From Synechococcus sp. RS9909 (lineage in GTDB: Bacteria > Cyanobacteriota > Cyanobacteriia > PCC-6307 > Cyanobiaceae): 64,000 bases of DNA. Under the pieces are notes generated by a model, which had not been told where the DNA came from, did no database searches, and worked only from the letters and a program-made list of their open reading frames with translations. The stretch covers positions 1,858,422 to 1,922,421 of the forward strand of contig NZ_CP047943.1 of assembly GCF_014279595.1 (NCBI RefSeq), read 5' to 3'. The translations under genes and the position numbers were made by a program. Positions 3,630 through 44,713 of the stretch are shown piece after piece. Every line of letters starts with the position of its first letter. Positions within the stretch are counted from its first letter, which is position 1.

Positions 3630-4907
3630 ATGCCGCACTCCATGCTGCTGGATCCGGTCCGGATCCTGATCGGCAGCGACCAGGATCCGATTGAACAGGG
3701 CGCCGCCCTGATCCGCGACGGTGCGCTGGTGGGCTTCGGTGACGACGCCAGACACTGGGCCCAGCGGGACGGCCTCGAAGCCCAGGCCAGGCCCAAGGCG
3801 CTCCTGGCACCTTTGCTGGTCGATCCCCACTCCGTTCTTGAGCAGCCCCTCAACGGCCAAGCGGAAACGCTGGAGAGCCTGTGCCGTGCCGCCGCTCGGG
3901 CGGGCTACGGCCAGGTGGCCCTGCTGCCGCGGGCCGAATCCTGGCGCGACAGGGTCGAGCGGCTCCAGGGAGTCCAACGCCCTGAGCTGGGGGTGCGGCT
4001 GCATCTCTGGGGCGGATTCAGTTGGGGCGGACGCGGTGAGCAGTTCTCCGCCCATGGTGACCTGCTGGAGCATGGCGCCATCGGCCTCGCCGACGATGAC
4101 CACTGCCCGCCGATTCCCCTGCTGCAGCGGGCCCTGGTGCTGGGAGAGATGGGCACGGCCCCGCTGCTGCTGGCGCCACGCGACCCCCAGATCCAAGTGG
4201 ACGGCATGGTGCGCGAAGGCGTGGAGACCCTGCGGGCCGGCTGGCCCCCGGATCCGGTCGCCAGTGAAACCCTGCCCCTGGGCCAGCTGCTCGAACTGCA
4301 GCGCCAGCATCCGGAGCGCCGTCTCTGCCTGATGAACCTGTCCACGGCCGCCGGTGTCAACCAGCTGGGGGCGGCGGCCGTGCAACCGCAAGCCAGCGTC
4401 TGCTGGTGGCACCTCGTGGCCGACAACGGCAGCCTCCAGCCCACGGAGACCGGCTGGTGCATCACCCCCTCGCTGGGGGGCCCGGAAGACCGGCAGGCCC
4501 TGATCGACGCGTTGGAGCGGGGCACCCTGGCTGCCGTGGCGGTGCACGCGGTGCCGCTCGACGAGGAAGACTGCCTGCTGCCGCCCGGAGAACGCCGCCC
4601 AGGCCTGGCGGGACACCAACTGGTGCTGCCGGCCCTGTGGCAGGAGCTGGTCAACGTCCGTGGCTGGTCGGTGCGTCAACTCTGGAACGCACTCAGTTTC
4701 GGCCCCTCCCGCCTGCTCGGGCAGGCGGAGGAGCGACTGGAGATCGGCAGCAACCGCTGGCTGCTGTTCGACCCCCAGCAGCGCTGGCGCCAGTCGCGTC
4801 GGTCAACCGATTCACCCCTGGCGGCCAATCAACCGTGGGAAGGGCGGGAGTTGGTGGGCCAGGTGACGGCCTGCGGTCTTACGACCCCAGAGACCCACTG
4901 CGATTGA
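3630..4907 (+). CDS. Dihydroorotase-like protein, probably without the normal metal site
   Basis: An amidohydrolase-fold protein of 425 residues resembling class I dihydroorotase (pyrimidine synthesis). Visible family features are LLAPLLVDPHSVLEQP near residue 52, HLWGGFSWGG, LMNLSTAAGVNQL and a C-terminal LWNALSFGPSRLLG like the usual end of DHOase. The metal-binding HxH of active enzymes is reduced here to DPHSV (second His replaced by Val), so activity is doubtful and a structural or PyrX-like role is possible. It starts 4 bp after the histidine phosphatase, suggesting co-transcription; ATG at 3642 is an alternative start. Confidence 0.7.
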   Translation: MPHSMLLDPVRILIGSDQDPIEQGAALIRDGALVGFGDDARHWAQRDGLEAQARPKALLAPLLVDPHSVLEQPLNGQAETLESLCRAAARAGYGQVALLPRAESWRDRVERLQGVQRPELGVRLHLWGGFSWGGRGEQFSAHGDLLEHGAIGLADDDHCPPIPLLQRALVLGEMGTAPLLLAPRDPQIQVDGMVREGVETLRAGWPPDPVASETLPLGQLLELQRQHPERRLCLMNLSTAAGVNQLGAAAVQPQASVCWWHLVADNGSLQPTETGWCITPSLGGPEDRQALIDALERGTLAAVAVHAVPLDEEDCLLPPGERRPGLAGHQLVLPALWQELVNVRGWSVRQLWNALSFGPSRLLGQAEERLEIGSNRWLLFDPQQRWRQSRRSTDSPLAANQPWEGRELVGQVTACGLTTPETHCD

Positions 4908-5583
4908 GGGGCCAGAAACGCCAGACAGCGCGGCCGAGGATCTCTTTTTCAGGCAGAAAGGGGCCGCCGGGCCAGTACCGGCCATCCCAGCTGTTGCTCC
5001 GGTTATCGCCGAGCGCCAGCACATGCCCCTTGGGCACAGTGACGTTGAGCGTGCGGCAACGGCTCATCCCCTGCGCATCCAGTGGGCAGTAGTTGCTCAC
5101 ATAGGGCTCGGGCACGGCCTTGCCGTTCACACTCACCTCACCCCGAGGATTCACCACCACCTGATCGCCGGCCACCGCCACCACACGCTTGATGTAGGCG
5201 TCACAGGCCGGATCACCGAGACCGGGGATCAGACCCAGCAGGGGAAAGTTGGCCAGGGCGCATTGCAACGGCGAAGGTGACGTGGTGGATTTCAGTGCTG
5301 GATCGAAGGAATAAGGAGAATTGAATACAACGATTTCACCGCGGCGGGGGGAACGCTGCCGGTAGGTGAGCTTCTCCACCAGCAGGCGATCCTGAATCTG
5401 CAGACCCGGCAGCATGGAACCGGACGGAATGAAACGGGCTTCAGCGATCCAGTGCCTGATGCCCAGGTAGAGGGCGAGGGTGAACAGCACCGGCCCCCAG
5501 AAATCCCAGAACGGGTGGGAGCGCCGCGGGCTCGAATCACGGGTCTGGCCCTCCGGGCTCGGATCCCTCTGCGCGTCGGACAA
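4879..5583 (-). CDS. lepB: Signal peptidase I
   Basis: Membrane-bound serine protease that removes signal peptides from exported proteins. The membrane anchor (FWGPVLFTLALYLGIRHW) precedes the catalytic Ser in FIPSGSM, and the general-base Lys is in YIKRVVAVAGD; the C-terminal box GDNRSNSWDGRYWG-type sequence is present as GDNRSNSWDGRYW. The open frame extends to 5703, but that would overlap the divergent gene starting at 5664. I chose the TTG at 5583, leaving about 80 bp between them; the start is uncertain. Its 3' end overlaps the convergent dihydroorotase-like gene by 29 bp. Confidence 0.88.
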   Translation of the reverse strand: MSDAQRDPSPEGQTRDSSPRRSHPFWDFWGPVLFTLALYLGIRHWIAEARFIPSGSMLPGLQIQDRLLVEKLTYRQRSPRRGEIVVFNSPYSFDPALKSTTSPSPLQCALANFPLLGLIPGLGDPACDAYIKRVVAVAGDQVVVNPRGEVSVNGKAVPEPYVSNYCPLDAQGMSRCRTLNVTVPKGHVLALGDNRSNSWDGRYWPGGPFLPEKEILGRAVWRFWPLNRSGSLGS

Positions 5584-5663: not shown

Positions 5664-7169
5664 ATGGTTCGACCCCGCTGGCAAGCGTTGAAACCCTCCT
5701 CAAGCGGACGCTTTTGGCTGCGCTGGGATCGACTGCTGGCGTTAATCGCCAGCGCGAACCTGGCCTGGGTCGTGTTCGATGTGACCTATGTGCCCCTGCG
5801 CACCTTCTGGCTGCAGCGCAACCTCTACCCGCTGCCGTCGGTGCCGCTGGCCGTGCCGCTGCCCTGGATCCCCGACATCACCCCGGCCTATGACCGGGTC
5901 AAGGGCATCGAACCTCATCGCGACACCGCTGCCTACATCGCCCACTTCCGCCAACTCGAGCAGGTGGCCGACAGCCAGGGCATCAACAGCCCCGCCGCGC
6001 GGCAGCTGCGCCTGGAAATGGTGGTGCGCAACAGCCAGCTCATCGACGAGAACCCCTTCATCGGCTCTGGCCAGGCCGGCACTCTCGAAAAACTGAAGAA
6101 TCGTCTGCGCGCCCGCGCCGGCCTTGATTCGGCCAAACAAGCGGCCGCCCGTCTCCTGAGTGACGACCAACTCGCTCAGGGCGGCTGGGACGAGGAGCGT
6201 GAATTCTGGAACCGCCAGATCCTGCCGCTGGCCGCCACCAATTACTGGCGTGGCATCGATGAAAACGGGCAGCCGATCGACCACGCCTGGCGCATCGACA
6301 CCCCGTTTCAGGTGCTGTTCCTCCTCGACATCCTGATTCGAGCGATCCGACTCAAACGTCGCTTCCCGGCGATCGCCTGGCGGGATGCCCTGTTGCGGCG
6401 ATGGATCGACCTGCCGCTGCTGTTGCCGTTCTGGCGCCTGCTGCGGATCATCCCGGTCACCGAAAGGCTGTCCAGCAGCCGTCTGATTCAGCTGGAACCG
6501 CTGCGAACGGTGGTAAGTCGCGGCGTGGTCGCCCTGCTGGCCCTGGAGCTGTTCGAAGTGCTCACCCTGCGGATCCTCGATGCGGTGCAAGGAGTGATCC
6601 GCTCGCCGCTGCTGCCCCAGAGAATCCGCGGATTGTGCAGTCACCAGTCGGTGGATGACAACGGCGAACGGGAGCTTGCCGAACTGATCAGGCTGTGGAT
6701 TCCCCTGTTGCTCACCCAGGTTGGACCGGGTATGCGTCCCCAACTGGTAGCTCTGTTCAGCCACGCGCTGCAGCGCAGCATGAGCGATGCCATGGTGCCG
6801 GGTCCGTTGCGTGAACTGGCGGCGGTGCAACGGGCGGAAAACGGCATCAGTCGCCAGCTGGCAACCGGCATGGTTGACGCCTTTCTCGATCTGTCACGAC
6901 AGACCGGTCAACGCCTGGGACGATGGGACGCCCAGATGGAGGATCTGGCCCTGGAGGCGTTCGACCGTTTCTGGGAGGAGTTGGCGCGCACCTTGGAGCA
7001 GGGTCCCGTGCTGGAGAGGAGCCAGGAACTGGTGGCAGCCTTTCTCGAGGAACTCAAACGCAACAGCGTGCAACAGCTGCGCGATCAGGGAGGCGTGGAT
7101 CAGCTGATCACAGAACTCGATGGCCTCAGCTTCACTGAGGAATCGCCTCGCTCCACACCTCGGCGTTGA
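5664..7169 (+). CDS. Conserved membrane protein with a voltage-sensor-like segment, unknown function
   Basis: A 501-residue protein of no family I can name. After an N-terminal membrane segment (about 20-40) comes a soluble region, then two or three hydrophobic segments at about 210-310. One stretch reads LFLLDILIRAIRLKRR followed by LLLPFWRLLRIIPV, with evenly spaced Arg residues as in the S3-S4 part of ion channels. The C-terminal 180 residues are helical and soluble. It may be a cyanobacteria-specific channel-like protein; the voltage-sensor likeness is only a pattern seen by eye. Confidence 0.75.
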   Translation: MVRPRWQALKPSSSGRFWLRWDRLLALIASANLAWVVFDVTYVPLRTFWLQRNLYPLPSVPLAVPLPWIPDITPAYDRVKGIEPHRDTAAYIAHFRQLEQVADSQGINSPAARQLRLEMVVRNSQLIDENPFIGSGQAGTLEKLKNRLRARAGLDSAKQAAARLLSDDQLAQGGWDEEREFWNRQILPLAATNYWRGIDENGQPIDHAWRIDTPFQVLFLLDILIRAIRLKRRFPAIAWRDALLRRWIDLPLLLPFWRLLRIIPVTERLSSSRLIQLEPLRTVVSRGVVALLALELFEVLTLRILDAVQGVIRSPLLPQRIRGLCSHQSVDDNGERELAELIRLWIPLLLTQVGPGMRPQLVALFSHALQRSMSDAMVPGPLRELAAVQRAENGISRQLATGMVDAFLDLSRQTGQRLGRWDAQMEDLALEAFDRFWEELARTLEQGPVLERSQELVAAFLEELKRNSVQQLRDQGGVDQLITELDGLSFTEESPRSTPRR

Positions 7170-7491
7170 AGCCAACGAGACAACGGCCGTCCGGGAGTTC
7201 AACAAACGGCCGTTTGATCAACTTGCCGTCGGCGGCAAGGGCGTCGAGGACCTGGCTATCCGTCATCGCCTTGACGCTGGCCGCACCCAGAGCGCGATAA
7301 CTCTGACCACTGGTGTTGAGGAGCGGTTGGCGCCGGCCAAACTGGGCCAGAGCACGGGCCAGCAGGTCCCGATCGGGCGGGCTCACGGTGATGTCATGGG
7401 GGGTCAGCTCAATCCCCCTGTCCTGAAGCCAGGCCAAAGCCTTGCGACAGGTGGAACAGCGGGAGTAACTCCAGATCGTGAGGCCGGTCAC
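7132..7491 (-). CDS. ArsC/Spx family thioredoxin-fold protein
   Basis: A 119-residue protein with the ArsC/Spx N-terminus IWSYSRCSTCRKALAWL (CxxC at about residues 12-15), GIELTPHDI, and the family's LIKRPFVELPDGRCLVGF near the C-terminus. In arsenate reductase the first Cys and three Arg act on arsenate; in Spx the CxxC is a redox switch for RNA polymerase binding. The CxxC favours the Spx/MgsR-like branch, but the biological role is open. Its last 38 bp overlap the 3' end of the convergent membrane protein gene. Confidence 0.85.
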   Translation of the reverse strand: MTGLTIWSYSRCSTCRKALAWLQDRGIELTPHDITVSPPDRDLLARALAQFGRRQPLLNTSGQSYRALGAASVKAMTDSQVLDALAADGKLIKRPFVELPDGRCLVGFNAEVWSEAIPQ

Positions 7492-35865: not shown

Positions 35866-36987
35866 TCAGGCCGCCTGCATCAACGGTAGCTGCCCTGGTT
35901 CATTGAGTTCATCTGGCGGCTGATTGATCCAGACCACCTCCGGTTGACGCCAACACCTGGTTGATCGTGACCAACGCCTTGGATTGAGCTGTCGGGCTCG
36001 CTCGTAGACGACAGCGCGATGGCGGCTGATCTCCACAGCCCGGCCATTGTGACGTTGCTGGGGCGTCACGAATTTGATCCCGCTGTGGCGGTGTTGGTGG
36101 TTGTACCAATCGACGAACGCGGCCACCCACTGACAAGCCTGCTCTTTGGAGGCAAATGGCTTGCGGGGGTAATCAGGCCGGTACTTCACTGTCCTGAACA
36201 GGGATTCTGAGTACGGGTTGTCGTTGGACACCCGTGGCCGTGAGAACGACCTGAGTACGCCCAGTTCCTCCAACCGGCTTTCCAGCGTGGCTGCACGCAT
36301 GGCGTTGCCGTTGTCGGCATGGAGAACCAGAGGTTGTTTCCTGCCTTTGCTGATCCGTTCTCTCAGGCAAGCCCTACTCACCAGATCCGCTGCAATCGCT
36401 GGATCTTCCCGTTCGGCGACATCCCAGGCCACAACCTTGCGGCTCCAGACGTCGATTACCAGGTAGAGGTAAAGCCAGATCCCGCGCACGGTGGTGGGCA
36501 GGTAGGTGATGTCCCAACTCCACACCTGGTTTGCGCCTGAGGCCCTGAGCCGTGGAATGGGGCGCGGTTCCTGTGGTGGCCGTGCACGACCGCGCCTGTG
36601 CACCTGTCCGTGGGCGTGGAGCACCCGGTAAAAGCTGCTCTCCGAGCCGATGTACAGCCCCTGATCTGCCAGTGCTGGCACGATCTGACCTGGTGGCAAT
36701 GCGGCGTACTGGGGCTGGTTGCAGGTGAGCAGGATGCGCTGGCGCTCCTCTTCACTCAGTCTGTGGGAGACCAGGCGTGGGCTGCCTTTACGACGATCGT
36801 GACCACCGTCATCACCCGTCAAGGCCTTGCGCCAACGCTTGAGGGTGCGCAGAGAGATCCCGATCTCGCTGCAGGCACGCACCAAACCCGCGCCAGCGGC
36901 ATGTGCCTCGCTGATCAGCTCGATGGCCTTCTTCCTGTGAGCGGCGCTGGTCAGCCTTCCGCGTCCTCCGAACAGAAGGCTTCCCAC
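35866..36987 (-). CDS. IS-A transposase OrfB (IS3 family, DDE)
   Basis: 373 residues. A helix-turn-helix (AAGAGLVRACSEIGISLRTL) precedes an rve integrase-type core with the triad: Asp in WSWDITYLP, Asp in LHADNGNAM, Glu in NPYSESLFRTVKYRP about 35 residues later. The ATG at 36987 lies 37 bp inside orfA; the position matching the IS-B OrfB start is a CTG over the orfA stop, so the natural start is unclear. Confidence 0.9.
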   Translation of the reverse strand: MGSLLFGGRGRLTSAAHRKKAIELISEAHAAGAGLVRACSEIGISLRTLKRWRKALTGDDGGHDRRKGSPRLVSHRLSEEERQRILLTCNQPQYAALPPGQIVPALADQGLYIGSESSFYRVLHAHGQVHRRGRARPPQEPRPIPRLRASGANQVWSWDITYLPTTVRGIWLYLYLVIDVWSRKVVAWDVAEREDPAIAADLVSRACLRERISKGRKQPLVLHADNGNAMRAATLESRLEELGVLRSFSRPRVSNDNPYSESLFRTVKYRPDYPRKPFASKEQACQWVAAFVDWYNHQHRHSGIKFVTPQQRHNGRAVEISRHRAVVYERARQLNPRRWSRSTRCWRQPEVVWINQPPDELNEPGQLPLMQAA

Positions 36988-37457
36988 TTTTTTCGCAGCA
37001 CCAGCAGGGCCGCCATCTCCGCCATGGCCTTCTCTTTGCGCTGCAGCTCCTTCTTGAGGGCTTTGATCTCCCGTTGGTCCTGGGCGCGGAGCTTTTCCAG
37101 CTCCTTCTGCTCTTTCAAGGTCAGCACTGGCTTTTCATTGGCATCCTGGGCCGCCTGCCGCCAACGCTCCACCTGCTCAGGAAACAGGCCTCGCTCTCGG
37201 CAGTAGGCACTGAGTTCGGTGGCGTTCAAGCCAGCCGTCTCCATCACCACCGTGAACTTATCGGCAGCGCTCCAGCCCTCTGGTTCCTTCTCGGATGCCG
37301 GCACCACCTCTCCCTGCAACCGCCATGCCTTCCTCCAGTTGTAAAGGGTCACCACGTGAATGCCCAGCTCCTCGGAGATCTGGGCCACGCTTTGCCGCTG
37401 CGGTGGGCTCATTCGCCTCCTCACGTCAGCCTTTACAGCCTCGCTGTAACGACGCAT
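36951..37457 (-). CDS. IS-A OrfA
   Basis: 168 residues: MRRYSEAVKADVRRRM, HTH with QSVAQISEELGIHVVTLYNWRKAW, a middle part with ELSAYCRERGLFPEQVERWR (second HTH-like helix pair) and a Lys/Glu-rich coiled coil (LKEQKELEKLRAQDQREIKA). OrfA of IS3 elements binds the inverted ends; this one is longer than the usual ~100 residues. Confidence 0.88.
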   Translation of the reverse strand: MRRYSEAVKADVRRRMSPPQRQSVAQISEELGIHVVTLYNWRKAWRLQGEVVPASEKEPEGWSAADKFTVVMETAGLNATELSAYCRERGLFPEQVERWRQAAQDANEKPVLTLKEQKELEKLRAQDQREIKALKKELQRKEKAMAEMAALLVLRKKWEAFCSEDAEG

Positions 37458-38471: not shown

Positions 38472-39614
38472 CTATTCCGCCGACGTCGTTGAAACCGGGC
38501 ACAATGCTGAGGTCTGCGTCGGGGGCGATCGTGAGGGTCCGCTCTCATGGATGAAACGACGACTCACGAATGGTGAGGTCATCGCTCGCAACAAGGTGCT
38601 GTAGCTGATCCGGAAGCGTTGCTCGTCGCCCACGGCCAGGTTCTTGGTAGCCCCACTCACCACCAGATGGTCACTGGAGGCCCCCTCGATGATCAGCCCG
38701 GGGGCACTGAGACCATCCGGATCGGCATCCTGCTCGCCGAGAGCCAGGATGACACGCTCGCCAAGCGCCTCAGCGGAATCAGTGCTGGCCACTCGCGGAG
38801 TGGTGGCAAAACTGGAGTGATGACGCGACCCCCACGGGCGGGTGGGCTTGACCTTTGCCTCGATCACTTCTGCCACCAGTGTGATGGCATCGGTGAAAAG
38901 GCCTGGGATGGCCTTTCGGGTCAGAGGCTCTCGACCCAGCAACAGCGCCTCTCCGAGGCGAAGGTGATTGATGCGTCCAAGGCCCACGCCGCCATTCAGC
39001 CAGTTCAAATTGGAGGAATTGCCACCGGAACACCACTGCAACCGGATGCAGAAGCGTGCTTCCAGAGCGCTGATCAGACGGGACAGTTCCCCCATATTGG
39101 CTGCATCCGGTGCCACGCCGTTCTGACAACCGAGATTGGTGCCGATCCCCACTAAATCAAGGCCCGGCAAGGCCAGTGTGAGCGCCACCATCGCTTCCAT
39201 GTCCGCCGGAAGAATGCCCTCGCGCAAGTCTCCCAGCTCCACCATCAACAGTACGCCATGGGACATGCCCTGACGCATGGCAGCGCCTGCTAGTGCCTTG
39301 ATCACAACAGGTTCGCTATTGCAGCTCATCGCGGCATGGGCCACCACACGATCCACCTGGCTCAGCATTGGCGAACGAATCAGCAGTCGTGGCACGCCCA
39401 AGTCGCAGCGGCTGAGTGATTCGATCGATTCAATCCTCGATTCACCGATGGAATGCACTCCTGCATCAATCCAGATCCGAACGATTTCCGGCATCCCAAG
39501 GGTGGCCTTGCTCACGCCGGTCACCTTGATGCCTTGCAGCGCCAGTCGCTCCACCATCGTGCGGGCGTTGTGACGTAATTGATCGAGCCGAATCTCCAGT
39601 CTTGGCGCTGTCAA
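38472..39614 (-). CDS. Alanine/ornithine racemase-type PLP enzyme (fold type III)
   Basis: 380 residues. TIM-barrel start LEIRLDQLRHNARTMVERLA with the PLP Lys in KVTGVSKATLG (residue 36), then GVHSIGESRIESIESL, LLMVELGDLREGI, GIGTNLGCQNGVAPDAANM, WCSGGNSSNLNWL, and INHLRLGEALLLGREPL. Resembles the ornithine/alanine racemase-like branch rather than canonical Alr. Starts with TTG overlapping the TGA of the upstream DUF1611 gene. The last ~25 residues after MTSPFVSRRFI look unrelated, as if the original stop was lost. Confidence 0.82.
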   Translation of the reverse strand: MTAPRLEIRLDQLRHNARTMVERLALQGIKVTGVSKATLGMPEIVRIWIDAGVHSIGESRIESIESLSRCDLGVPRLLIRSPMLSQVDRVVAHAAMSCNSEPVVIKALAGAAMRQGMSHGVLLMVELGDLREGILPADMEAMVALTLALPGLDLVGIGTNLGCQNGVAPDAANMGELSRLISALEARFCIRLQWCSGGNSSNLNWLNGGVGLGRINHLRLGEALLLGREPLTRKAIPGLFTDAITLVAEVIEAKVKPTRPWGSRHHSSFATTPRVASTDSAEALGERVILALGEQDADPDGLSAPGLIIEGASSDHLVVSGATKNLAVGDEQRFRISYSTLLRAMTSPFVSRRFIHESGPSRSPPTQTSALCPVSTTSAE

Positions 39615-40801
39615 AGAACCTGGCGCACAGCAGGGCCTAACGCAGGGAATGCCTGCACGACCATGTCCACCAAGGCTTGCGAAGGGCCACTCACTGCATC
39701 GGTCACAGGAATGGCTAATTCGCTTTGATGCAGCGCGATTGACGCTCTCAACTCGCGGGCATCCATTCCCTCGTGGTTGATGGTTAAACCGATCACGCGA
39801 GTTGGAGAAAACGCTTCGATCAGGCCAATTTCACTGGCAGGGGTAGGCATGGCCATGAAAGGGAAGTCACTCAGATGTCGGCGCGCTGGAGCATGCTGAA
39901 GAATCACACCCTGGGGTTGGCTTCCACGCAGAATGAAGCTGGAGGAGAGATAGGCAGGATGGCTCAAGGCACCTTGACCTTCAATCACAATGACCTTAGG
40001 CCGTTCGGCTTCGTAGGCCTCCACCACGGCAGCTTCGACTTCGCCAGAACAGAATTGAGATGGAATGGCATCAAGGGGCATGCCATAACGCCCTCCCTGG
40101 ATCAGACCTGTCTGGCCTGTGCACACCAGTGCAGCGTGGATACCGCTGCTCTTCAGGGCCTGGACAAGCAGGGTGGCTGTGGTGCGTTTGCCGATCGCCC
40201 CATCCGTTCCCAGCACGGCAATGCGTAGGCATGGAACGTTGAAGATGTTGCCACTGAATAAACGCAGATCCTTCAATGCGGGCGGACGCCGCACATCGCG
40301 GATGTGTACCTGGTGTTGTCTGGCTACTGCAGCGAACTGGTGATCATCACTGAGAAACTCACGCATCCCGCTGACCAGATTCAGGCCCGCTGCCATGGCT
40401 GACAGCAGAGCGGCACGATCGTTGCTGGAGAACAGACCATCCGCTGGTGCCATGCCATAGATCATCGTGCTGACACGTGGCCCTGGCAGAGCGAGGGCCT
40501 CCTGTAGATCAGCCACGATGGGGATCCCACTGTTGAGTCCATCCAGCAACAATCCGGCGTCTACACCGGATGATTCTCGATCAATAACGGCACGAATCTT
40601 AAATGCTTCGCAGAAGCGCACCAGGCCATGAGCTGTTTTACCATCGAGGCCAGCGAAGTGGCCTTCGCAGTAAATGACAGCTCCTGGAAGACAATCCCTT
40701 TTCGGAGGAATCGTCAGGACTTCAGGGGCCTTGTCGTGAATGAAATTGATGAAAGGTTTCAAAAAAGCCAGGCCCAACCCAATGCCTCTGACTTCAAGCA
40801 A
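39611..40801 (-). CDS. DUF1611 (DgcN-type) P-loop protein
   Basis: 396 residues, TTG start. The DUF1611 N-domain is seen in AVIYCEGHFAGLDGKTAHGL, followed by VIDRESSGVDAG, IYGMAPADGLFS, and a P-loop at about 197-206 (VLGTDGAIGKRTTATLLVQAL). The C-domain has SGEVEAAVVEAYEAERPKVIVIEGQGALSHPAY and ITINHEGM-type sequence (LTINHEGMDA). Members have been described as DgcN, an N-acyltransferase-like step in D-glutamate catabolism. Here it is coupled by a 4-bp overlap to a PLP racemase, suggesting a D-amino-acid module. Confidence 0.8.
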   Translation of the reverse strand: MLEVRGIGLGLAFLKPFINFIHDKAPEVLTIPPKRDCLPGAVIYCEGHFAGLDGKTAHGLVRFCEAFKIRAVIDRESSGVDAGLLLDGLNSGIPIVADLQEALALPGPRVSTMIYGMAPADGLFSSNDRAALLSAMAAGLNLVSGMREFLSDDHQFAAVARQHQVHIRDVRRPPALKDLRLFSGNIFNVPCLRIAVLGTDGAIGKRTTATLLVQALKSSGIHAALVCTGQTGLIQGGRYGMPLDAIPSQFCSGEVEAAVVEAYEAERPKVIVIEGQGALSHPAYLSSSFILRGSQPQGVILQHAPARRHLSDFPFMAMPTPASEIGLIEAFSPTRVIGLTINHEGMDARELRASIALHQSELAIPVTDAVSGPSQALVDMVVQAFPALGPAVRQVL

Positions 40802-41294: not shown

Positions 41295-41666
41295 GTGAAT
41301 CTCACCAACGAACTGGCCCGCCAGCGCAACCGCGATGCCGCGGAGCGCACCCTGATGGCCTGGATCCGCACCTGTCTGTCCTTGATCAGCTTTGGATTCG
41401 GTCTCGACAAGATCGTGGCTGCCATTGACCGGGCCACGGGTGATCCAGGGCCCAGGCCCGGGGTGATCGCAGTAGCACTCTCCTTTGTGTTCACCGGCAT
41501 CCTGGCGATGTCCGCCGCCATCGTTCAGCACAACCGCGAGCTCAGGCGCCTCAGCAGGGAGAACTACGCGTATGTGGAAACACCGCGAATCGCTGCGGCC
41601 ACAGCAACCATGATCACCCTGATCGGTCTGCTGGCCATGGCGATTCTGCTCTCGAACTGGCTGTGA
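41295..41666 (+). CDS. DUF202 family membrane protein
   Basis: 123 residues from GTG at 41295. DUF202 (YidH) signature RDAAERTLMAWIRTCLSLISFGFGLDK, then membrane spans PGVIAVALSFVFTGILAMSAA and AATATMITLIGLLAMAILL. Function unknown; some members have been linked to phosphate or osmotic stress. Confidence 0.88.
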   Translation: MNLTNELARQRNRDAAERTLMAWIRTCLSLISFGFGLDKIVAAIDRATGDPGPRPGVIAVALSFVFTGILAMSAAIVQHNRELRRLSRENYAYVETPRIAAATATMITLIGLLAMAILLSNWL

Positions 41667-41857: not shown

Positions 41858-42364
41858 ATGCGTCGCTACAGCGAGGCCGTCAAGGCTGATGTGAGAAGGC
41901 GGATGAGTCCGCCGATGCGGCAGAGCGTGGCCCAGATCTCAGCAGAGCTGGGCATTCACGTGGTCACCCTCTACAACTGGAGGAAGGCCTGGCGGTTGCA
42001 GGGAGAGGTGGTGCCGGCATCCGAGAAGGATCCTGAGGGCTGGGGCGCCACCGATAAGTTCACGGTGGTGCTCGAGACCGCTGGGCTCAACGCCACCGAG
42101 CTCAGTGCCTACTGCCGCGAGCGGGGCTTGTTCCCGGAGCAGGTAGAGCGCTGGCGTCAGGCATCGCAGGATGCCAACGAAAAACCAGTGCTCACCTTGA
42201 AAGAGCAGAAGGAGCTTGAACGGCTCCGCGCCCAGGATCAAAAGGAAATCAAGCGGCTCAAGCAGGAGCTGCGCCGCAAGGAGAAAGCCCTGGCGGAGGC
42301 GGCTGCACTGCTGATCGCCTCAAAAAAGATTCAGGCCTTCTGGGGAGAGGACGGGGACGATTGA
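41858..42364 (+). CDS. IS-B OrfA
   Basis: 168 residues, closely similar to IS-A OrfA: MRRYSEAVKADVRRRM, HTH QSVAQISAELGIHVVTLYNW, ELSAYCRERGLFPEQVERW, and a charged coiled coil. Its TGA overlaps the TTG of orfB (TTGA), a layout that favours translational coupling. Confidence 0.88.
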   Translation: MRRYSEAVKADVRRRMSPPMRQSVAQISAELGIHVVTLYNWRKAWRLQGEVVPASEKDPEGWGATDKFTVVLETAGLNATELSAYCRERGLFPEQVERWRQASQDANEKPVLTLKEQKELERLRAQDQKEIKRLKQELRRKEKALAEAAALLIASKKIQAFWGEDGDD

Positions 42365-43446
42365 CGTCACCCGACGATCGCCGGAAGGCCCTGGATATTC
42401 TTGATGAGGGCATGGCCAATGGTGCCCGAGCCCGTGAGCTGGCCTTGCTGCTCGGCGTGGGGCTCACCACGCTGCAGCGCTGGCGCCGTCAGTTTGCTGG
42501 TGACGGTGATGGCGTCGACCGGCGCAAGGGGAGCCACCGCCACGTCGCTCACCGCCTCAGTGAGGAGGAACGCCAACGGATCCTGCTCACCTGCAACGAA
42601 CCTGAATTTGCAGCGCTGCCGCCAGGCCAGATCGTGCCGGTCCTGGCCGATCGCGGGCTTTATATCGGTTCGGAACGCAGCTTTTACCGGGTGCTGCACG
42701 CTCACGGTCAGGTTCACCGGCGGGGTCGTGCACGGCCACCACAAGAACCAAGACCCGTGCCACGGCTGAGGGCCGCTGGTCCAAATGAGGTTTGGAGCTG
42801 GGACATCACCTACCTGCCCACCACCGTGCGCGGGATCTGGCTGTACCTCTACCTGGTGATTGACGTCTGGAGCCGCAAGGTTGTGGCCTGGGATGTCGCC
42901 GAGCGCGAGGATCCAGCCATTGCAGCGGATCTGGTGAGCAGAGCCTGCTTGAGAGAGAAGATCAGCAAGAGGCGCCGCCAACCGCTGATCCTCCACGCTG
43001 ACAACGGCAATGCCATGCGTGCGTCGACGCTGGAAAGCCGGCTGGAAGAACTGGGTGTGCTCAGGTCGTTCTCACGGCCGCGCGTCAGCAATGACAACCC
43101 CTACTCCGAATCGCTGTTCCGCACAGCGAAGTACCGGCCTGATTACCCGAGACGGCCATTTGCCAGCAAGGACGAGGCCTGCCAGTGGGTCGCGTCGTTT
43201 GTCGACTGGTACAACCATCGGCACCGCCACAGCGGCATCAAGTTCGTGACGCCCCATCAACGCCATAGCGGTCAGGCCATCGAGATCTGTCGACATCGCG
43301 CTGTCGTGTACGAGCAAGCGCGCAAGCGACACCCACGCCGGTGGTCACGATCCACACGCTGCTGGCGTCAACCAGAGGTGGTCTGGATCAATCCACCACC
43401 AACAGAACTTGACCCCAGTCCAGCTACGTTGAGGATGGCTGCTTGA
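42361..43446 (+). CDS. IS-B transposase OrfB (IS3 family, DDE)
   Basis: 361 residues from TTG at 42361. HTH segment (ARELALLLGVGLTTLQRWRR), LSEEERQRILLTCN, then the DDE core: Asp in WSWDITYLPTTV, Asp in LHADNGNAM, Glu in YSESLFRTAKYRP. Compared with IS-A OrfB the core is nearly the same, while the first 50 and last 20 residues differ most. Confidence 0.9.
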   Translation: MTSPDDRRKALDILDEGMANGARARELALLLGVGLTTLQRWRRQFAGDGDGVDRRKGSHRHVAHRLSEEERQRILLTCNEPEFAALPPGQIVPVLADRGLYIGSERSFYRVLHAHGQVHRRGRARPPQEPRPVPRLRAAGPNEVWSWDITYLPTTVRGIWLYLYLVIDVWSRKVVAWDVAEREDPAIAADLVSRACLREKISKRRRQPLILHADNGNAMRASTLESRLEELGVLRSFSRPRVSNDNPYSESLFRTAKYRPDYPRRPFASKDEACQWVASFVDWYNHRHRHSGIKFVTPHQRHSGQAIEICRHRAVVYEQARKRHPRRWSRSTRCWRQPEVVWINPPPTELDPSPATLRMAA

Positions 43447-43461: not shown

Positions 43462-43770
43462 TCATCTTTGCTGGCAGTCACCGCTGCGGCGCATCGCTTC
43501 GATCGCCCGCACGATCAGGAACACCACGAAGGCGATCACCAGGAAGTTGATCAAGGCCACGATCACGCTGCCGGCGGGCCAGGCGGCGATGGAGTCCACA
43601 TTCGCCGCCTTGAGGACGGGCTCCAGGATGTTGCCCATCACGAGACTCACCACGGCATCCACCACCTTGCCGAAGGCGCCACCGATCACCACCGCCACGG
43701 CGAGATCCACCACATTGCCTTTGTTGATGAAGTCCTTGAAATCAGCAAAGAATGTCCGAGTGCGGGCCAC
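43462..43770 (-). CDS. mscL: Large-conductance mechanosensitive channel MscL, C-terminally truncated by IS-B
   Basis: Pressure-release channel of the cytoplasmic membrane. Residues 1-97 are intact: FFADFKDFINKGNVVDLAVA (N-terminal helix and first TM), KVVDAVVSLVMGNILEPVL, and second TM VIVALINFLVIAFVVFLIVR. After AMRRSGD the frame enters the IS and ends with CQQR, giving 102 residues instead of about 130. The lost C-terminal helix remains at 41697-41797. In E. coli MscL this bundle can be removed without abolishing channel activity, so this copy may still work. Confidence 0.88.
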   Translation of the reverse strand: MARTRTFFADFKDFINKGNVVDLAVAVVIGGAFGKVVDAVVSLVMGNILEPVLKAANVDSIAAWPAGSVIVALINFLVIAFVVFLIVRAIEAMRRSGDCQQR

Positions 43771-43885: not shown

Positions 43886-44713
43886 TCAACGCCGCCCATT
43901 CACGATCACCGACTGACCACCAGCCGCACCGGAACTGGGCAGCGCAGGCACAACGGAGGTTTGGCCATCCCACTTGTCGAGGAACAGCTTGTAGAGCACC
44001 TGATCATCGAGGCTGGAGTTCAGCGTTGCGTAACGCTTGGCCTCCTGCTCCGCAATCTTCACCTCGGTTTGAGCGCGAAGGAGCTGCTGCTCTGCGATCT
44101 GCTTCTGCTCAATGGCAGAGCGATACTCCTCGGCGATCTTCAGCCCGGTGAGGTCTAGGCCCTGCACCGTCACATAATCAAACTTGGCCAGCTCCTCTGT
44201 CACCTTGCTCTGCACAATCTCAGAGATCGTGTTCCATTCCGTGGCAATGGTGACCAGCTCATACTGGGAAAACACCGACTTCAGCGCTTTCAGCAGAGAC
44301 GGTTGAATCACCCGTGGATAGATCTGCTGGTTATCGGTGGCGATGGTTTGAAAAATGCGCCCTGCCTCGCCGGGCTTCATCGCATACTTCACCGTGGCCG
44401 TGGCCTCAATCACCTGCAGGTCTTTGGTGAGGGTGGAGAACTGCTCAGGTCGCACCTGGGTACGCACATCAAACAGCGAAACCGTCTGCACGAGCGGCGC
44501 CTTCAGATTCGGCCCCGGCGTCCTGGGGACGCCGGTCACCTTGCCGAGGGTGGTGACCACGGCCACATTGCCCGCCGGCACGATGAACACAGCCTGAGCG
44601 AGCAGGATCAGCAACCCCAACACCACAGCCACGATCAGGCCCAACCCTCCACCGGGTCCGCCGGAATTGATGGAGCGGAGCGGTGTCTGCATCAGGTTTT
44701 TGCCGTTAACCAA
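43886..44713 (-). CDS. Prohibitin-like SPFH/band 7 protein
   Basis: 275 residues: N-terminal membrane anchor (LGLIVAVVLGLLILLAQAVF), SPFH domain (VPAGNVAVVTTLGKV, PLVQTVSLFDVRTQV, ATVKYAMKPGEAGRI, SVFSQYELVTIATEWNTISE), then a coiled coil (AIEQKQIAEQQLLRAQTEVK) and a Gly/Val tail. Prohibitin-type proteins form ring assemblies on membranes and may guard membrane proteins. Similar proteins occur in Synechocystis (Slr1106 type). Confidence 0.9.
   Translation of the reverse strand: MVNGKNLMQTPLRSINSGGPGGGLGLIVAVVLGLLILLAQAVFIVPAGNVAVVTTLGKVTGVPRTPGPNLKAPLVQTVSLFDVRTQVRPEQFSTLTKDLQVIEATATVKYAMKPGEAGRIFQTIATDNQQIYPRVIQPSLLKALKSVFSQYELVTIATEWNTISEIVQSKVTEELAKFDYVTVQGLDLTGLKIAEEYRSAIEQKQIAEQQLLRAQTEVKIAEQEAKRYATLNSSLDDQVLYKLFLDKWDGQTSVVPALPSSGAAGGQSVIVNGRR

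Follow-up and report, generated by a model that had tools for sequence, protein, structure and literature searches.

DUF1611 is still listed in Pfam as a domain of unknown function, and DgcN is the one branch encountered here that has an assigned role. The ornithine racemase Orr belongs to the oxidative ornithine pathway of Clostridia. Acidic D-amino acids and the amides of these are, according to PMC12363236, handled by an irreversible route with DgcN as its key gene. In the two papers found to name DUF1611, PMC6695200 and PMC6143709, the term just labels a gene in a table, and no title or abstract start in the literature searched, most subscription journals lying outside its scope, describes a DUF1611 gene paired with a racemase dependent on pyridoxal phosphate (PLP). 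We analysed such a pair in a 64,000-nucleotide stretch of the Synechococcus sp. RS9909 genome (the window; contig NZ_CP047943.1, positions 1,858,422 to 1,922,421), a 2.6 Mb genome in a single contig. The closest named relatives of the pair are in Cyanobium and Synechococcus. Together the two gene products probably produce or convert a D-amino acid, and by another route than the known one. Their features, in window coordinates, are as follows.

39611..40801, minus strand: protein with a DUF1611_N Rossmann-like and a DUF1611_C P-loop domain, racemase-linked subfamily (Pfam, NCBIfam, model; start uncertain)
40178..40210, minus strand: DUF1611 P-loop GTDGAIGKRTT, residues 198-208, with R206 at the position where DgcA-linked proteins usually have Met
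40034..40057, minus strand: DUF1611 residues 249-256, with Q249 and E254 of the racemase-linked type and E256 common to both types
39611..39614, minus strand: TTGA stop/start overlap joining the two genes
38472..39614, minus strand: PLP-dependent fold-type III racemase, Orr-related (Pfam, NCBIfam, model matching alanine racemases)
39507..39509, minus strand: racemase Lys36, expected to bind PLP as the counterpart of Lys39 in alanine racemase
38601..38603, minus strand: racemase Tyr338, candidate second catalytic base

The upstream gene encodes 396 residues that match PF07755 at 209 bits and PF17396 at 82 bits, both above cut-off, and the DgcN profile (NF041892) at 148 bits, below its cut-off of 480. 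The downstream gene encodes a 380-residue protein that matches the alanine racemase N-terminal domain PF01168 at 80 bits; its best NCBIfam match is Orr (NF040742) at 295 bits, below the cut-off of 480, and it reaches 19.4 bits against Alr (TIGR00492; cut-off 168). The DgcN and Orr cut-offs are strict: the window genome's own DgcA-linked DUF1611 copy (216 bits) misses the first and the Acetoanaerobium racemase L109 (400 bits) the second. A structure model of the racemase, with a predicted local distance difference test score (pLDDT) of 87.2, has alanine racemases as its nearest solved structures. The first-pass annotation, made from the sequence alone, had called the protein a fold-type III enzyme of the ornithine/alanine racemase kind. 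The C-terminal ~20 residues are not common to relatives and are modelled at low confidence.

That annotation had also read both genes as starting at TTG and overlapping by TTGA. The overlap and the racemase start hold up well, since 90 of the 104 distinct pairs gathered share an NTGA stop/start overlap (34 TTGA, 33 ATGA, 22 GTGA and 1 CTGA) and 14 are without one. The TTG start of the DUF1611 gene is not established: in-frame TTG codons lie at residues 1, 9 and 14, matches to relatives begin only at residues 31-42, and the model of this protein has a pLDDT below 50 over residues 1-34.

The pair is an old and tightly coupled two-gene module with a fixed gene order, found across several phyla. 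A profile built from an alignment of eight racemases was scanned against one genome per species and returned 521 relatives, from which the best 80 were kept. In 78 of these 80 loci a DUF1611 gene lies directly upstream of the racemase on the same strand, and in the other two (L045, L082), where no DUF1611 is in view, the racemase sits at a contig edge; among the 78, the DUF1611 gene is partial in L047 (masked) and L088 (edge) and split over two frames in L091. The genome-neighbourhood survey that had been suggested as a check thus speaks against an accidental pairing. By the titles of their records, the carriers comprise Cyanobacteria, Deltaproteobacteria, Acidobacteria, Planctomycetes, families of Verrucomicrobia, Lentisphaeria, Actinomycetes, Acidimicrobiia, Alphaproteobacteria and Gammaproteobacteria, many of the records being metagenome bins. 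In one Rubritalea bin (L081), there are two DUF1611 copies (3773-4921 and 6140-7372), one to either side of the racemase.

Within this wide distribution the pair is rare. A full-length racemase of the pair type was present in 8 of 60 surveyed genomes, counting the window's own and its relatives, and in all eight the best DUF1611 match was directly beside it. Three of 31 surveyed genomes of the window's genus carry the pair, the window genome included, and in the class of a Roseibium genome a strong racemase match was found in 4 of 190 genomes, again including the centre genome. On plasmids, a DUF1611 gene was upstream in 7 of 7 racemase matches with cover of at least 80% and identity of at least 39%, and in none of the seven examined, out of 11, with long cover and identity of at most 37% (the low-identity matches H10, H14, H15 and H18 and the partial 43-50% matches H19-H21 were left out of the count). 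Among viral contigs, none of 13 pattern matches was confirmed as a relative. One distant match, at 28.9% identity, was found in a Staphylococcus phage record, and carriage of the pair by phages was rejected.

Both partners belong to separate subfamilies. In the racemase tree, 45 DUF1611-linked sequences form one clade against the unlinked ones, Orr-type included (support 100/99), although the unlinked set comprises seven sequences only, on long branches. In a 99-row DUF1611 tree, from which four filamentous-type cyanobacterial pairs were left out, all 35 racemase-linked proteins fall on one side of a branch with a Shimodaira-Hasegawa-like approximate likelihood ratio test (SH-aLRT) value of 96. 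With 41 racemase-linked rows, those four pairs included, there is one exception, L207, which has no racemase, lies beside an M20 peptidase gene and falls inside the branch of these cyanobacterial pairs. Both trees, computed under LG+G4 with no mixture model, place the Cyanobium-type pairs apart from those of four other cyanobacteria, which points to an old transfer between phyla.

The separation is also visible residue by residue. A comparison of 99 racemase-linked with 106 DgcA-linked DUF1611 sequences showed that the racemase-linked proteins keep the core of the family, namely K55, D169, R171, G198, D200, G204-K205, the TGQ at 228-230, D244, E256, the EGQ at 274-276 and D368. Around this core, residues are switched from the DgcA-linked type (its fraction in brackets) to the racemase-linked type: Asp to Q249 (1.0), Ala to E254 (0.85), Met to R206 (0.84), Thr to H343 (0.83) and Ile to Q235 (0.80), with further switches at positions 302, 324 and 344. 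A common core with switched residues points, at the level of sequence, to related chemistry that may act on a different substrate. The linked racemases (102 rows, at least 98%) have K36 and Y338 in common with all seven unlinked relatives, and R131, R219 and S314-D315-H316 likewise run through the Orr-type proteins. E126, fixed in the 102 linked rows, is Asp in the seven unlinked ones, where W205 and R214 are replaced by Leu and mostly Gly. W205 and R214 were considered as specificity residues and set aside; because the model places R214 a little ahead of the strand beginning at residue 217, it was given no role.

DUF1611 has two kinds of racemase partner. Among 142 full-length DUF1611 genes from four surveys, 102 adjoin a DgcA-type enolase-family gene (gap of at most 1200 bases; at most 400 bases in another classification), 19 adjoin a PLP racemase and 18 adjoin neither; the other 3 are at the edge of a contig. 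Without four known pair carriers (the survey centres G062, G064 and G065 and the window genome), the racemase-linked share is 15 of 138; in three of the surveys only full-length genes were counted (51, 40 and 3), and 10, 17 and 35 weak matches were dropped. The two partner types coexist in single genomes: all eight pair-bearing genomes among the 60 carry a second DUF1611 gene, which has a DgcA-type neighbour in six of them, and in the window genome it adjoins a DgcA-like enolase-family open reading frame (ORF). The window genome also encodes a separate Alr and MurI, both above cut-off, so the pair should be dispensable for the D-Ala and D-Glu of peptidoglycan. Two further arrangements were seen on the way. 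At L216 and L303, racemase-less DUF1611 genes follow a threonine-synthase-like gene, whose product in L216 Pfam assigns to the PLP-dependent PALP enzymes; genes of this type are a possible third partner. In L305 (2488-3099), from a genome of the Planctomycetota survey, a D-Ala-D-Ala dipeptidase-like gene directly follows DUF1611, another link to D-amino acids.

The linkage, overlap, clades and residue switches described above are observations; for acylation, substrate and direction we infer the following. We regard the pair as a variant of the DgcN-DgcA theme, with a probability of roughly 0.4, in which PLP-dependent racemisation would be followed by modification of the D-amino acid by the DUF1611 enzyme. 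The racemase would take a free L-amino acid, needing its alpha-amino group unmodified, to the D form, and the DUF1611 enzyme would then most likely N-acylate this product, as reported for DgcN. Such acylation would trap the D product and could pull the reversible racemisation one way. The order of steps would be the reverse of that of DgcN-DgcA, where acylation reportedly comes first and the enolase-family enzyme racemises the N-acyl compound. According to PMC8142540, N-acyl racemases of the enolase family bind the amide carbonyl by way of a metal, and alanine racemase acts through a PLP external aldimine with the amine. The first of these properties implies the acylate-then-racemise order for DgcN-DgcA; and since a PLP racemase needs a free amine and a DgcA-type enzyme an acylated one, the order in the pair should differ. 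If DUF1611 modifies the alpha-amine, an order with a PLP racemase cannot equal that of DgcN-DgcA, and our best guess is the simplest one, racemisation and then acylation of the D form. An acidic amino acid or amide is a first guess at the substrate, on the weak grounds that DgcN acts on these and that peptidases or amidohydrolases of Glu/Asp compounds lie near the pairs of some lineages. The pair might even make, and not salvage, an N-acyl-D-amino acid from the common L pool, perhaps as a stress solute or store, although we think this unlikely. If true, the module, common to several phyla, would commit an L-amino acid to a stable D derivative in a manner of which the literature searches listed no account.

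Several points weigh against racemisation followed by acylation. In its P-loop domain, DUF1611 is similar to dethiobiotin synthetase and further enzymes that use ATP; an ATP-dependent reaction could therefore take the place of acyl-CoA transfer. Among named racemases Orr is the closest, and this would point to ornithine and not to an acidic residue. DUF1611 can work without an adjacent racemase, since neither kind lies next to 21 of the 142 genes (none was found for 18, and the other 3 are at edges). Fitting hydrolases, M81 and PepE, were found at none of 10 independently drawn racemase-linked loci, and the catalytic activities of both proteins are predicted only.

Salvage, in which the pair would turn D-amino acids from peptidoglycan or from the dissolved pool to the L form, with N-acylation by DUF1611 assisting and a separate deacylase finishing, is an unlikely alternative. 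DgcN, the best known member of DUF1611, serves D-Glu use (PMC10845958 and PMC12363236), and the M81, PepE and N-formylglutamate amidohydrolase genes that lie close to some of the pairs could provide substrates or complete their processing, but a PLP racemase would convert the substrate alone, leaving DUF1611 without a clear role, and a DgcA-linked DUF1611 is already encoded in the genome. The gene settings also bear on the question. Around 20 DgcA-linked loci used as controls, the 47 near genes comprise, among others, 9 class IV aminotransferases, 6 LysR regulators, a dicarboxylate symporter, a gamma-glutamyltranspeptidase and an M20 peptidase, whereas the 32 near genes of 10 racemase-linked loci include 4 histidine kinases, 1 LysR regulator, 1 MscS channel, 1 Cpn10 and 1 N-formylglutamate amidohydrolase, with no aminotransferase among the 25 commonest of their 45 families. 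This contrast is suggestive only, the samples being of differing taxa: the control tally covers the nearest 47 of 103 listed genes, and the controls are nearly all of one phylum. Pfam tallies of neighbours were confined throughout to the 25 commonest families (of 82, of 45 for racemase-linked and of 65 for DgcA-linked loci), and neighbour genes were called by a simple codon-usage score.

The hydrolases are limited to a few lineages. Among 46 non-cyanobacterial pairs, an M81 metallopeptidase gene is near nine: in L061 it follows the pair directly and overlaps it by the same 4 bases, and in eight Deltaproteobacteria-type bins it is divergent. PepE is near three, directly upstream in L071 and divergent in L058 and L060. 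MlrC, a relative of M81, cuts an Adda-Glu bond (PMC9506587). Eleven of 95 scanned sources have genes of the SPFH family (prohibitin or hflK/hflC), noticed post hoc, close to the pair in several arrangements (the window at 43886-44713, L026, L029, L032, L033, L036, L037, L038, L085, L105 and L108). M81, PepE and SPFH genes were absent from all 10 independently drawn racemase-linked loci and from all 20 DgcA-linked controls, and we rejected them as parts of the module; they are lineage-specific at best. No third gene is conserved either: the 45 largest neighbour-ORF clusters, beyond the pair and overlapping frames, each cover at most 11 of 80 loci. A conserved DgcN-related module with a different racemase partner makes the different D-amino-acid route of the first-pass annotation a natural reading, while salvage, its proposed purpose, found no direct support.

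About equally improbable is that DUF1611 is an ATP-dependent ligase, which would activate a carboxylate as an acyl phosphate and join it to a D-amino acid supplied by the racemase, giving an amide or dipeptide. The conserved P-loop, D200, E274 and other core residues would suit such a reaction. The AlphaFold model of DUF1611 (pLDDT 82.7) is closest to 2obn (Z 40.0), 2g0t (Z 36.3) and DgcN itself (7xrj, Z 31.9), and the next matches, at Z of about 14, are P-loop proteins that include dethiobiotin synthetase, CTP synthetase and cyclic 2,3-diphosphoglycerate synthetase; MurD is matched weakly in Foldseek (TM-score ~0.2). A P-loop fold alone is no proof of ligation, however, as MinD and ParA-type ATPases occur at similar Z. 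The matches to MinD, ParA and the nitrogenase iron protein were set aside as a common fold. Moreover, among solved relatives the closest for which an activity is stated is 7xrj, whose title names an N-acetyltransferase.

Somewhat less likely still is an ornithine (or lysine) racemase whose D-ornithine is acylated by DUF1611, perhaps at its side-chain amine. In NCBIfam the best match is to Orr, and the residues that run through all seven Orr-type relatives, listed above, would fit. The 295 bits lie well below the Orr cut-off, although the Acetoanaerobium copy is also below it; the linked racemases form a separate clade with E126, W205 and R214 in place of the Orr-type residues; and no ornithine gene family turned up in the neighbour tallies, which included no search aimed at them. 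Membership by name was rejected on the score below the strict cut-off and the separate clade.

That the two genes are chance neighbours, or were brought together by insertion sequence (IS) elements, is very improbable: IS elements flank the window pair, its G+C content is 58.2% against 63.5% for the window, and its occurrence in the genus is patchy, but the pair stays together in 78 of 80 loci whose surroundings differ, both partners lie in separate clades and the IS copies have diverged. The flanking features are as follows.

35866..37457, minus strand: IS element with two transposase ORFs (HTH_Tnp_1 and rve domains)
41858..43446, plus strand: IS element with two transposase ORFs, in opposite orientation (alignment to the other copy; transposase domains)
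43886..44713, minus strand: prohibitin/SPFH gene (Band_7, 104 bits), context only and not counted as part of the module

The pair does lie between IS elements, as had been noted, but acquisition by way of them is not borne out. A composite transposon would require near-identical flanking copies, and these are inverted and only 78.6% identical over 1701 aligned bases; this candidate was rejected. The pair is also common to many Cyanobium and Synechococcus genomes. A prohibitin homologue adjoins it in 7 of 36 Cyanobium-type loci, six times downstream and once upstream, and the window prohibitin, 84% identical to the copy in L026, now lies beyond the right-hand IS element. The divergence of the copies and the position of this gene make the IS elements look like later arrivals and not carriers.

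Some neighbours were recorded for their own sake. Between the prohibitin gene and the pair, the window has genes for an MscL channel (43462-43770) and a DUF202 membrane protein (41295-41666). In the Vibrio plasmid loci L104, L105, L107 and L157, the gene immediately after the racemase encodes a GspS-beta-like lipoprotein; some of these loci also have chaperonin, Hsp20 or hflKC genes nearby. A small protein of ~117 residues is encoded upstream of DUF1611 in the proteobacterial loci L106, L108, L112, L256, L260, L263, L078, L080 and L090 and in 3 of 10 survey loci; four copies scanned gave no Pfam match above cut-off.

The analysis shows a second branch of DUF1611 with a racemase partner from an unrelated family, conserved residue switches and other surroundings in the samples. 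It raises the concrete question of which D-amino acid is acylated, or ligated to what, and an answer would extend D-amino-acid enzymology in a way relevant to marine and freshwater dissolved organic matter. It also counsels caution against passing the names DgcN and Orr to proteins that may act otherwise. With DgcN-DgcA (NF041892, 7xrj) the pair has in common a DUF1611 protein beside an amino-acid racemase, the two-domain fold and the conserved core; it differs in having a PLP fold-type III partner in place of an enolase-family one, in a DgcN score below cut-off, in residues 206, 235, 249, 254, 302, 324 and 343-344, and in the near genes sampled. Like BioD and related enzymes, DUF1611_C has a P-loop domain fold, to which DUF1611 adds an N-terminal Rossmann-like domain and conserved motifs of its own. 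The racemase has the fold-type III architecture of Alr, its family of nearest solved structures, yet scores far below the Alr cut-off in a genome that has a separate Alr above it. With Orr (NF040742) it has the PLP racemase family, the conserved Lys and common motifs; unlike Orr, it falls in a clade of its own with the E126/W205/R214 signature and a DUF1611 gene alongside in nearly all of the best 80 loci, whereas the Orr-type loci L109 and L154 have no DUF1611 alongside.

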